Positions 22,379 through 37,065 of a DNA stretch of 37,731 nucleotides are shown here, one piece after another. The stretch comes from Lachnospiraceae bacterium (GTDB taxonomy: Bacteria; Bacillota; Clostridia; Lachnospirales; Lachnospiraceae): positions 1-37,731 of the forward strand of contig JAILPE010000097.1 in NCBI GenBank assembly GCA_024699645.1, given 5' to 3'. Each line of letters opens with the position of its first letter. The first letter of the stretch is position 1. The notes beneath the pieces are model-generated. The model searched no databases. It had not been told where the DNA came from and saw nothing but the letters and a program-made list of their open reading frames with translations. Both the position numbers and the translations under genes were made by a program.

Positions 22379-22399
22379 TAATAATATAGTTATAAAGAA

Positions 22400-22480
22400 G
22401 ACGATTCCTGACGGATCAGTGGAGTTCACCACGTGGGATCGTCGTATACCGCAAGGTATATTAATGCCGACCGTCTGGGC
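22400..22480 (+). promoter_or_regulatory. ZTP (pfl motif) riboswitch aptamer
   Basis: P1 GACGATTCC/GGGATCGTC; GTGGAGTTCACCACGTGGGA; conserved 3' segment GCCGACCGTCTGGGC; located upstream of pflB. Confidence 0.88.
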
Positions 22481-22516
22481 AACTTCAAAACGAAGTTGCC
22501 CTTCTTTTATTTTCCG
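22477..22516 (+). terminator. Riboswitch expression-platform intrinsic terminator
   Basis: GGGCAACTTC-AAAAC-GAAGTTGCCC followed by TTCTTTTATTTT; 5' arm overlaps the aptamer GGGC. Confidence 0.88.
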
Positions 22517-33526: not shown

Positions 33527-36469
33527 ATGAAGAAAAGCTCGCCTAAACTTAAAATGCTGATCGTTGATGATGCTTTCACAAACAGAATATTGTTAAGTGA
33601 AGCTTTTGACGATGACTTTGAAATCCTCATGGCTGAAAACGGTGAAGTGGCTCTTGATCTGCTTCATAAGAATAAGGATGTCGCTATTGTGCTCCTTGAT
33701 CTCATTATGCCGATCATAGACGGATTTTCTGTGCTTCAGGCAATGATTGAGGATTCCGAGCTTTGTGAGATACCCGTTGTCGTTGTAACATCTGCCGATG
33801 AGATCGAAAATCAGGTTCGTGCTTTTGATCTCGGTGCTGCCGATATCCTTACAAAACCACTTAACATCCAGCTGATCAGACACAGGATCAGAAACATAAT
33901 CGCCCGCAGCTCTCAGAAGCTTTTGAATGATGATAAGCGAGTTCCCGTCTTCAGAAAGTTCCTTTCGGAACAGGTACACGACTCAAAGACCGGTCTTTTT
34001 AACAGAAATTCATTCTGCAAGAAGACGCGTGAGGTTATAGATAAGAATCCTAAGGTTGTTTTTGTTATTTTCAGGATTGATATTGACGGATTCAAAGTCA
34101 TTAACGATGTATACGGCATTTCTGAGGGCGATCGTTGTCTTTCGGAAATGGCGAACATGTTCCGTGGCTTTGAGGCTGACAATACGGTGTTCGGACGTTG
34201 GGAGGCAGATCATTATGTCGGCTGTATGCCCATGGAGGACTTCAACAGGCATAATGTTGCCAATACATTTACGAGCCCCATTAACGATTCGAGGTTCGAT
34301 TTCGATGTGACAAGACGTATGGGCGTTTATGTTGTTGAAAACAGAGAACTTGATATCAGCCTGATGTGTGACAGGGCGCTTCTCGCCTTAAAGAGCATAA
34401 AGGGTAAATACGAGAGCCATGTAGCGTACTACAGTGAGGATATGCGTCAGGAGCTCATTGAGAGTCAGCAGATCGTTAACGAGATGAATGCTGCCCTTGA
34501 TGACGGTCAGTTCATAATATATATCCAGCCTCAGTTTAATTATGATACGAACAAGCTTCACGGCGGTGAGGCGCTTGTGAGATGGAAACATCCCAATAAA
34601 GGCATCATCATGCCCGGTAAATTCGTCCCTATTTTTGAAAAGAACGGATTTATCACACATCTTGATCAGTTTGTGTGGGAAGAGGTATGTAAGCTGCAAC
34701 GCAAGTGGCTTGACGAAGGGCGTGCGGTAGTGCCGATATCGGTCAACGTTTCGAGAATGGATATAGCCAGCCTCAGGCTTGTCGATCATTTTGTAAAACT
34801 TATCGGAAAGTATGAGATTCCCACAGAGCTTTTGAGAATCGAGATCACGGAGTCCGCATATATGGACAATCCGTCTCAAATGATCGAGACGGTAAGCAGG
34901 CTTCGCGAGGCAGGTTTCAGCGTAGAGATGGACGACTTCGGAAGCGGATATTCGTCACTGAACACGCTCAAAGATGTTACGGTCGATATGCTTAAGCTCG
35001 ATATGAAATTTATAGAGGGCGGGAAGAACGCGGAAAGAGGCGGAAGCATATTAAGTTCTGTCATAAGAATGTCCAACAGGCTGAATCTCGCGGTTTTGGC
35101 AGAAGGTGTTGAAACCAAAGAACAGGCTGAGTATCTGAAGAGTATCGGATGTATCTACATGCAGGGTTATTATTTTGCCCGTCCGATGCCCGTTAACGAT
35201 TACGAAAGGATCCTTACAGGCAAAGAACATGAACTGCCGATCGCTGATATTGACGCTTATGGCGCCGATTCGACAGTTGATTTTCTTAATGCGTCTGTAC
35301 AGAGCACGCTCATATTTAACAGTTTTGTCGGAGGCACGGCAATAATCGGATTTGACGGTGAGGATGTTGAGACACTTCGTGTGAACGAGAAATTCTTTGA
35401 GGCCATAAGCGCCGACAGGGATAAGTTTAACGAGGGAGATTTCAGTATTCTTGACGACCTGAATAAAGAAAACAAGGCAAAGCTCTTTGAAACTTTCAAT
35501 AATGCGGCGAGCGAGGGAGTTGAGAAAAGCTGTGAAGTTATGTATACCAGAGACGGCAAGGAGGAAGTATATGTGTGCTTCCGTGTCAGATGCCTTGAAA
35601 CAAACGGAGAAAAGCATCTTTTGTACATAATGGTGGAGAATGTCACCGAAAGAGTGCTTTTGGTCAAGAACAATATCCGTCTGACGAACCGTATATCGGA
35701 TATTATGAACAAGGTTCCCGCAGGTATTGCCGAATTTGAGATCGCGGGAGATGATATCCATATCCTTTTCCATAACGATTTCCTTCCCGAAATATACGGA
35801 TATACGCCCGAAGAGTACGAAAAAGTTGTTATGCCCGATGTGGTTAAAACATTCCACCCGGATGATATCACGAAGATCATGGAGCTTGCCAAAGAGGCGA
35901 AGGAATGCGGCCTCAAGAAAGCGAATATCAGGTTCAGACACACAACGCTCGATGCGGGATACAAATGGGCGTTGGCGAATCTCGTCGTAACGCACATAAT
36001 AAGCGGACGTATATATGTAACCGGCATAATCGAGGATATAGACGAAAGAGTCGCAATGGAGACCAGGCTGTCGATACAGGAAAAAAGGTACGAAAGACAG
36101 CGATTGCTCATGGATTCGGTATTCTCTTCAATACCATGCCCCGTGATGCAGTTCTATCACAGCAGCAAGGATGACGCGTATCTTCTTGTTAACTGTAACG
36201 ATGCGGCCTATGGGTTGTTTGGATATAATGAGATAGATGAGTTCAAGAAAGATATTAACGGGAAAAAGAATACGTTTATTTCCGAAAAGAGTAAAGATTT
36301 CTTTGATACCATTGAGGATCTTACAAGTGGGAAGATCGATCATTGCGAACGTGGTATGATCATCAGAAAGCGGGACGGATCCGAACAGAGTGTTAAAGAT
36401 TATCTTTCAAGAATTGTTTTCGGAGATCAGGTGTTTGTCCAGCACATTATCATTACGGAAGACAAGTGA
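33527..36469 (+). CDS. REC-degenerate GGDEF-EAL-PAS hybrid signalling protein
   Basis: Receiver (MLIVDDAFTNR, VLLDLIMPIIDG, KPL); GGDEF position WEADH; EAL intact (GGEALVRWKHP, DDFGSGYSSL, LAEGVET); C-terminal PAS-like region (YGYTPEEYEKVVMPDVVKTFHPDD). Confidence 0.9.
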   Translation: MKKSSPKLKMLIVDDAFTNRILLSEAFDDDFEILMAENGEVALDLLHKNKDVAIVLLDLIMPIIDGFSVLQAMIEDSELCEIPVVVVTSADEIENQVRAFDLGAADILTKPLNIQLIRHRIRNIIARSSQKLLNDDKRVPVFRKFLSEQVHDSKTGLFNRNSFCKKTREVIDKNPKVVFVIFRIDIDGFKVINDVYGISEGDRCLSEMANMFRGFEADNTVFGRWEADHYVGCMPMEDFNRHNVANTFTSPINDSRFDFDVTRRMGVYVVENRELDISLMCDRALLALKSIKGKYESHVAYYSEDMRQELIESQQIVNEMNAALDDGQFIIYIQPQFNYDTNKLHGGEALVRWKHPNKGIIMPGKFVPIFEKNGFITHLDQFVWEEVCKLQRKWLDEGRAVVPISVNVSRMDIASLRLVDHFVKLIGKYEIPTELLRIEITESAYMDNPSQMIETVSRLREAGFSVEMDDFGSGYSSLNTLKDVTVDMLKLDMKFIEGGKNAERGGSILSSVIRMSNRLNLAVLAEGVETKEQAEYLKSIGCIYMQGYYFARPMPVNDYERILTGKEHELPIADIDAYGADSTVDFLNASVQSTLIFNSFVGGTAIIGFDGEDVETLRVNEKFFEAISADRDKFNEGDFSILDDLNKENKAKLFETFNNAASEGVEKSCEVMYTRDGKEEVYVCFRVRCLETNGEKHLLYIMVENVTERVLLVKNNIRLTNRISDIMNKVPAGIAEFEIAGDDIHILFHNDFLPEIYGYTPEEYEKVVMPDVVKTFHPDDITKIMELAKEAKECGLKKANIRFRHTTLDAGYKWALANLVVTHIISGRIYVTGIIEDIDERVAMETRLSIQEKRYERQRLLMDSVFSSIPCPVMQFYHSSKDDAYLLVNCNDAAYGLFGYNEIDEFKKDINGKKNTFISEKSKDFFDTIEDLTSGKIDHCERGMIIRKRDGSEQSVKDYLSRIVFGDQVFVQHIIITEDK

Positions 36470-36477
36470 TACGGATG

Positions 36478-36640
36478 GGAGATTTGCCGTAAAGTACAGG
36501 AGATGGGTAAATTGGACAGGAGGTATGCCTGCAAAAGTACAGAAGATGGATAAAATGGATAGGAAATATGTCACAAAGTACATAAGATGGGTAAAACATG
36601 TGGGAAATATGTCGTAAAGTACAAGAATGATGAATTGTAT
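36478..36640 (+). repeat. Degenerate 41-43-nt tandem repeat, about 4 copies
   Basis: Units start 36478, 36519, 36562, 36603; consensus GGAaATaTGyC.yaAAGTACAgrAGATGGgTAAAatggayA. Confidence 0.75.
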
Positions 36641-36701: not shown

Positions 36702-36730
36702 TTGACAACTTCGAAATACGGGAGTATAAT
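36702..36730 (+). promoter_or_regulatory. Perfect-consensus sigma-A promoter driving the repeat array
   Basis: TTGACA (36702-36707), 17-nt spacer, TATAAT (36725-36730). Confidence 0.85.
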
Positions 36731-36736
36731 TCAGTC

Positions 36737-37065
36737 ATACCAAACAGAAAGGTAGACAAAATCTTTTTAGGAGGTACGGTCCAACAAAAACATAAGTAGG
36801 TCGTAGTCGACCAACCCACGGAACTATACTTACAAAGGAGGTACATTCCAAAGGATACTTAAGTTAAGGTCATAAGACCAAGTGGATTACCGGAAGGAAA
36901 CTGAACAAGGAGGTACGGTCCAAAGGAAATATGTGACTGATCTTAGTTGATCAAAATCCGGAACTATAATTACAGAAGGAGGTACGGTCCGAAGGAGACA
37001 TAAATCTTTATGAATGATATATGATGAGGGCATCGGAATGAAAGTGGAAGCCGATGCCCGTTCGC
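36737..37065 (+). ncRNA. Candidate repeat-array RNA: four ~70-nt AGGAGGTACGGTCC units
   Basis: Units at 36769, 36836, 36908 and 36977; hairpins at unit offset ~30 in units 1-3; end hairpin GGGCATCGG...CCGATGCCC (37028-37059); no sizeable convincing ORF; 5' end inferred from promoter. Confidence 0.55.

Follow-up and report, generated by a model that had tools for sequence, protein, structure and literature searches.

The window is a complete contig of 37,731 nucleotides from a Lachnospiraceae assembly of 2.13 Mb. It contains an array of repeated units between a gene for a Response_reg-GGDEF-EAL-PAS protein (upstream) and a gene for a YjfB_motility protein (downstream). The array is preceded on the plus strand by a sigma-A type promoter (36702–36730), proposed in a preliminary description of this DNA and borne out here: TTGACA (36702–36707) and TATAAT (36725–36730) are separated by 17 nt and match the consensus at 12 of 12 positions, with a start site expected near 36737. 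The stretch from the EAL gene to the promoter also contains three imperfect copies of a direct repeat (36454–36636; 58-nt match, with 84 and 41 nt from one start to the next), which are distinct from the array units. Elsewhere in the window, a ZMP/ZTP riboswitch occurs at 22394–22487, above the Rfam cut-off.

The array consists of four plus-strand units with AGGAGGTACRNTCC cores, starting at 36769, 36836, 36908, and 36977 (spacings of 67, 72, and 69 nt), as had been described. Units 1, 3, and 4 open with AGGAGGTACGGTCC and unit 2 with AGGAGGTACATTCC; a single base follows, then a codon at a set distance (the codon slot) and a stop codon in its frame. Unit 1 (36769–36795) has AGGAGGTACGGTCC and an A, followed by ACA AAA ACA TAA, with the ACA slot at 36784 and the stop at 36793–36795. 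Unit 2 (36836–36862) has AGGAGGTACATTCC and an A before AAG GAT ACT TAA (slot AAG at 36851, stop at 36860–36862). The longest frame is that of unit 3 (36908–36940), in which AGGAGGTACGGTCC and an A precede AAG GAA ATA TGT GAC TGA (slot AAG at 36923, stop at 36938–36940), and unit 4 (36977–37003) has AGGAGGTACGGTCC and a G before AAG GAG ACA TAA (slot AAG at 36992, stop at 37001–37003). The in-frame stops of units 1–4 are at codons 3, 3, 5, and 3, and with slots of ACA, AAG, AAG, and AAG the window bears out the earlier observation that every core lacks a well-spaced start codon. Unlike the window units, those of relatives frequently have AUG at exactly that spacing. A search of the whole 2.13-Mb genome gave good unit matches in the window array only.

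A candidate terminal micro-ORF, ATGAATGATATATGA (ATG AAT GAT ATA TGA, encoding MNDI*; 37010–37024, plus strand), lies immediately 5' of a 9-bp end hairpin. Its translation is uncertain because its SD spacing is long (about 12 nt). Relatives read MNYIG*, MSYIV*, or MNVID* at this position, and in distant loci a MDSIV*, MDEIV*, or MKLLEIH* micro-ORF is often last, abutting the terminator; ATGAATGATATATGA may be the equivalent of these terminal micro-ORFs. The end hairpin itself (GGGCATCGG/CCGATGCCC; 37028–37036/37051–37059, plus strand) is terminator-like, with a poor T-tract. As no canonical T-run follows it in the window (GTTCGCTTTAT), termination here is uncertain, and a terminator was not called. 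Across the family, a permissive scan placed a terminator-like hairpin 3' of 85% of loci, as compared with 48% of control segments.

The linkers of units 1–3 contain hairpins with different stems (all plus strand), which had been taken to suggest selection on structure. That of unit 1 (GGTCG/CGACC; 36799–36803/36808–36812) is invariant in six relatives and shows no covariation, and that of unit 3 (TGATC/GATCA; 36938–36942/36949–36953) is paired in all six, with one one-sided change. The hairpin of unit 2 (GGTC/GACC; 36868–36871/36876–36879) is paired in 65% of cells, and is broken or replaced in some relatives, another hairpin standing in its place in one of them (G017). Compensatory change was found in none of 23 pairs among the six relatives and hairpin 2 is not kept throughout, which leaves the earlier suggestion unsupported; conserved secondary structure was rejected for this absence of covariation support. 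In most distant arrays, A-rich linkers take the place of the hairpins.

Conserved copies of the array exist. The same layout, adjoining yjfB, is present in six same-genus genomes (the window's included). In comparisons of close relatives, the unit 1 core is unchanged in six relatives, barring one spacer base in one genome, and unit 2 is missing from one (G011). The in-frame TGA of unit 3 is retained in six relatives while codons 3–5 vary, this TGA also being within the conserved hairpin arm. In more distant genomes of the genus, the same unit forms an array at another site, in 3–9 copies and with A-rich linkers in place of the hairpins. The contigs matched by a two-unit pattern number 26, and each bears the label Clostridia or that of a group within it (e.g., Lachnospiraceae, Oscillospiraceae, Ruminococcus, and Eubacterium). 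A sequence-only unit model matched 83 of 299 sampled Lachnospiraceae genomes and 16 of 393 genomes in a class-wide sample, ten of these 16 being outside Lachnospiraceae; in a phylum-wide sample of 399 searched at a stricter cut-off, no genome besides the window's own matched. Many sampled genomes are MAGs, and a few single unit matches are ordinary gene starts (e.g., L132 and L133). Arrays have 1–11 units, mostly at one locus per genome and at two in some. Because the layout is kept in six same-genus genomes and unit arrays recur in dozens of genera, the window array is beyond chance.

No Rfam 15 family matches over the window array, even at E≤1, nor do any match 47 relatives' loci at gathering cut-offs, and a known RNA family was rejected on this ground. 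Phage or plasmid origin was also ruled out, there being no match in phages or plasmids; two IMG/VR matches to the two-unit pattern (L208 and L209) are due to chance, lying within a protein whose RYGP codons are repeated, and are not arrays. Relevant papers on the motif or the terminal peptides were not found in the open-licence literature, and an earlier description elsewhere is possible. The window array is apparently one copy of an undescribed Clostridia family of stand-alone RNA genes, in keeping with the preliminary description of a putative promoter-driven, non-coding, multi-site RNA outside Rfam.

Of 120 array loci, 61% are preceded by a promoter matching at least 11 of 12 consensus positions, as compared with none of 175 control windows. 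The neighbouring genes differ by lineage and occur in either orientation, the downstream gene often being on the opposite strand; they include a hydrolase, GltA-like, UDG, SufBD, an AraC regulator, and an ECF transporter, among others. No conserved protein gene was found beside the arrays at loci across lineages. Since the neighbours vary in both identity and orientation, the product of the locus is likely to be the RNA itself. An association with tRNA or rRNA genes was rejected, as none lie near most loci within the stretches read. A 6S RNA gene adjoins one array (L109:1771–1949), and another array (L096) is close to where an rRNA operon ends.

Unit statistics were drawn from 323 unique units at 125 loci. 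Units have the order SD, conserved UACRGUCC spacer, codon slot, and in-frame stop; the AUG or non-AUG slot with its stop, like the breadth of the family, goes beyond the preliminary description. The core consensus is GAGGUAYRGUCC, which is conserved across genera and in which G2, G3, C10, and C11 are essentially invariant, as are the TA positions. The slot is thirteen bases past the G of GAGG, 9 nt after the SD, and this spacing is fixed. About half of the units have AUG in the slot, and the remainder have mostly AAG, ACA, CCA, AAA, or AUC (AUG 135, AAG 83, CCA 27, ACA 20, CCG 15, AAA 13, UUG 12, and AUC 10 among the 323). With GUG, AUU, AUA, and CUG nearly absent, most non-AUG slots hold codons that do not serve as starts. 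Every one of the four units of the window has such a non-start slot, as do about 36% of units overall after weighting (53/148).

A stop follows in the frame of the slot, usually at codon 3, also in units without a start codon. An in-frame stop within five codons occurs in 82% of start-slot units and 91% of non-start units, as compared with 20–45% for the other frames. Among independent units (below 70% identity; independence weights are approximate), stops in frames 0, 1, and 2 number 61, 16, and 21 for start-type units (p = 5e-9) and 44, 13, and 13 for non-start units (p = 4e-7). The figure for codon +3 is inflated because the model used for gathering loci includes TAA. Units having no stop by codon +3 provide a test independent of TAA in the search model, and the corresponding counts are 20, 3, and 5 (start-type) and 10, 0, and 2 (non-start); the statistics were chosen, out of many that could have been used, while viewing the data, and this last test is the least affected. 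At codon +3 of non-start units, TAA drifts to TTA or GAA more often than to TAG or TGA, and a sequence motif therefore fits as well as a stop does.

The units do not appear to form part of a protein-coding gene. Unit spacing has a median of 56 nt and is even modulo 3, which excludes one long reading frame; a long ORF or repeat protein was thus ruled out, the spacing being no multiple of three. Reading the core itself as coding (RYGP...T*) was rejected because T never occurs at position 12, which speaks against a proline codon, and no upstream in-frame start for this reading was seen in the units read. Nor is the motif a generic RBS of these bacteria, as the GAGGTAYRGWCC-N-ATG pattern occurs 16 times in 20 genomes, always inside array loci.

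The preliminary description had raised pairing with the anti-SD of 16S rRNA, and this gained support. With the 16S end GGATCACCTCCTTTCT taken from same-order genomes, the predicted mean duplex energy of units is -16.5 kcal/mol versus -14.0 kcal/mol for spacer-shuffled units (sd 0.12), about 2.5 kcal/mol thus coming from the spacer on top of the SD. The four window units are predicted to pair at -14 to -18 kcal/mol. The predicted duplex has a 2-nt AC bulge flanked by two paired parts, AAGGAGGU with ACCUCCUU and GGUCC with GGAUC, which together give an extended helix of AAGGAGGU-AC-GGUCC against GGAUCACCUCCUU. For pairing, the favoured spacer ACGGUCC ranks with the best 3% of random 8-mers. The common spacers ACAGACC and ACACUCC pair no better than many random 8-mers, and 16S pairing therefore accounts for only part of the conservation. 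The perfect complement GUGAUCC would be stronger yet is unused, which indicates that UACRGUCC is conserved by something beyond 16S pairing. Firmicutes ribosomes are known from Staphylococcus aureus to accept extended start-proximal SD helices (PMC13009471), and a non-translated SD without a start, STAB-SD, can bind 30S and protect RNA (PMC4113751).

Several explanations of the array may be weighed against these data. Titration of CsrA for motility control, as first proposed, draws on the window itself, whose genome encodes CsrA (G000:C97), whose units bear AGGAGG and mostly AAGGA, and whose array is flanked by the EAL/GGDEF gene and yjfB; the CsrB/CsrC and RsmX/Y/Z sponges are likewise stand-alone RNAs with repeated SD-like, GGA-bearing units. 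Unlike in those systems, most array genomes lack CsrA: PF02599 is undetectable in 48 of 83 array-bearing Lachnospiraceae genomes, and its association with arrays is not positive (odds ratio 0.64, p = 0.09), and a CsrA sponge was rejected as the general function. GGA also varies, with G at -1 of GAGG in just 52–76% across the family and ACGAGG in many units. The arrays do not present repeated ANGGA in hairpin loops; cores are not consistently in such loops, and those of the window lie outside conserved ones. As for motility, only close relatives of the window (six genomes) share the EAL/YjfB neighbourhood. The array is far from yjfB in several same-genus genomes, and eight others have no array at E≤0.1 and a yjfB match in all eight; the link was rejected because the neighbours are lineage-local. 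We consider the CsrA proposal very improbable. A sponge for a different RNA-binding protein, one recognising GAGGUACRGUCC, would suit a 12-nt core that is multi-copy and strongly conserved beyond the needs of 16S pairing, and the general layout is like that of CsrB/RsmZ-type sponges. Such a sponge requires target mRNAs with the same site, and its likelihood is weakened by the restriction of the exact SD-spacer-AUG to arrays in the 20 genomes. With unit matches nearly confined to arrays, no conserved protein gene adjoining them, and a start-stop reading frame that would be unexpected, this explanation seems unlikely.

Two further explanations invoke translation of the array or its end. The RNA might be a cis-acting leader or attenuator of yjfB, in which ribosomes on the units or the terminal micro-ORF set readthrough of the hairpin at 37028–37059. 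In the window lineage yjfB is about 110 nt 3' of this hairpin, a position kept in close relatives; the hairpin lacks a strong T-tract in the window, and many members of the family have a micro-ORF directly next to the hairpin. We nevertheless find this quite improbable, as the downstream gene differs elsewhere, often lying on the opposite strand, and yjfB has an SD of its own (AAGGAGGTTTGTATG). The array might instead be a series of micro-ORFs that are toxic or regulatory through peptidyl-tRNA drop-off, in the manner of the phage lambda bar minigenes, or that encode short functional peptides (MDSIV, MKLLEIH). Many relatives indeed have units of SD, AUG, one to four codons, and a stop, using all three stop codons, and the terminal peptides recur with synonymous codon changes. 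The non-start slots of the window and of about a third of weighted units make this improbable, and second codons are so diverse that no specific tRNA or peptide is indicated.

The repeated RBS, the codon slot at a fixed distance, and the in-frame stop suggest instead that this is probably a ribosome-capturing RNA, and not one that codes for protein or soaks up CsrA. The architecture, conservation, promoters, frame bias, pairing potential, and lack of conserved neighbours can be read directly from the sequence; from these we infer that the RNA would be expressed, would bind ribosomes, and would have a consequence for translation. That the array is a stand-alone, multi-site, ribosome-capturing RNA of a Clostridia-wide family is the explanation that we favour, and we hold it to be an evenly balanced proposition. 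The window region would then be the gene for a stand-alone RNA of about 300–350 nt. Each unit would be a docking site, at which AAGGAGGU pairs with the anti-SD and GGUCC can extend the helix into the adjacent 16S tail. AUG units would permit a start followed by immediate termination, and AAG, ACA, CCA, or AAA units would hold a 30S subunit or ribosome without efficient initiation. As units are 50–70 nt apart, one subunit per unit would be possible. The RNA would titrate or sense free 30S subunits or ribosomes, or be stabilised by them, and would act in trans and not on a neighbouring gene. The start-less in-frame units could have arisen by gene conversion from units with AUG, or could be decoded in the absence of AUG. 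A broader proposal, which we advance tentatively and with some doubt, is that of a new RNA class regulating translation globally by ribosome docking on tandem sites, start-less micro-ORFs included; in its strongest form, the extended SD helix would set in-frame decoding from non-AUG slots, such as AAG, ACA, and CCA.

Among known systems, the cry3A 5' stabiliser of Bacillus thuringiensis (STAB-SD; PMC4113751) has a similar SD, complementary to the 16S 3' end and without a usable start, as is the case for all four window units. STAB-SD is a single element in the leader (5' UTR) of the protein-coding mRNA that it stabilises, whereas the tandem copies here constitute an entire RNA that stands alone in most lineages, and its units, unlike STAB-SD, have a conserved spacer, codon slot, and stop. 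The extended SD sites of S. aureus (PMC13009471) share the start-proximal extension of the SD/anti-SD helix; unlike the arrays, they are lone initiation sites of genes, not tandem and not fixed in spacer sequence. The bar minigenes of phage lambda have the form SD-AUG-codon-stop (cited in PMC8012679). They resemble the units of many relatives in being minimal ORFs that recruit ribosomes and end after one or two codons; the window units (ACA/AAG/AAG/AAG) do not take this form. Bar minigenes are not known to form arrays or to have the conserved UACRGUCC spacer. ToxI of type III toxin-antitoxin systems has promoter-driven tandem repeats with a terminator-like hairpin at the end, as do the arrays, whose units differ in being longer and in having SD/stop logic. 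A type III antitoxin RNA was ruled out, as there is no conserved downstream toxin gene and the neighbours vary.

Ribosome capture by this RNA, if real, would make it a dedicated regulator of translation capacity across a family that is dominant in gut and rumen, and tens of natural array variants are at hand for tests. The frame that persists in start-less units poses a testable question, the reach of the extended SD helix on Clostridial ribosomes. Whatever the mechanism, many commensal genomes have here an RNA gene that is unannotated, absent from Rfam, and preceded by near-consensus promoters.

Other short elements recur among the arrays. GACGAGAAAGU is found in many relatives' array RNAs (L104, L106, L121, L158, L159, L167, and L171), and UUUAUAUAGAU recurs elsewhere in the family. 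Two short ORFs also repeat from genus to genus, a second recurrent one, MKGR(G/D/A)P*, and a terminal one, MKL(L/Q)EIH* (L094, L109, L120, L122, L159, and L161).
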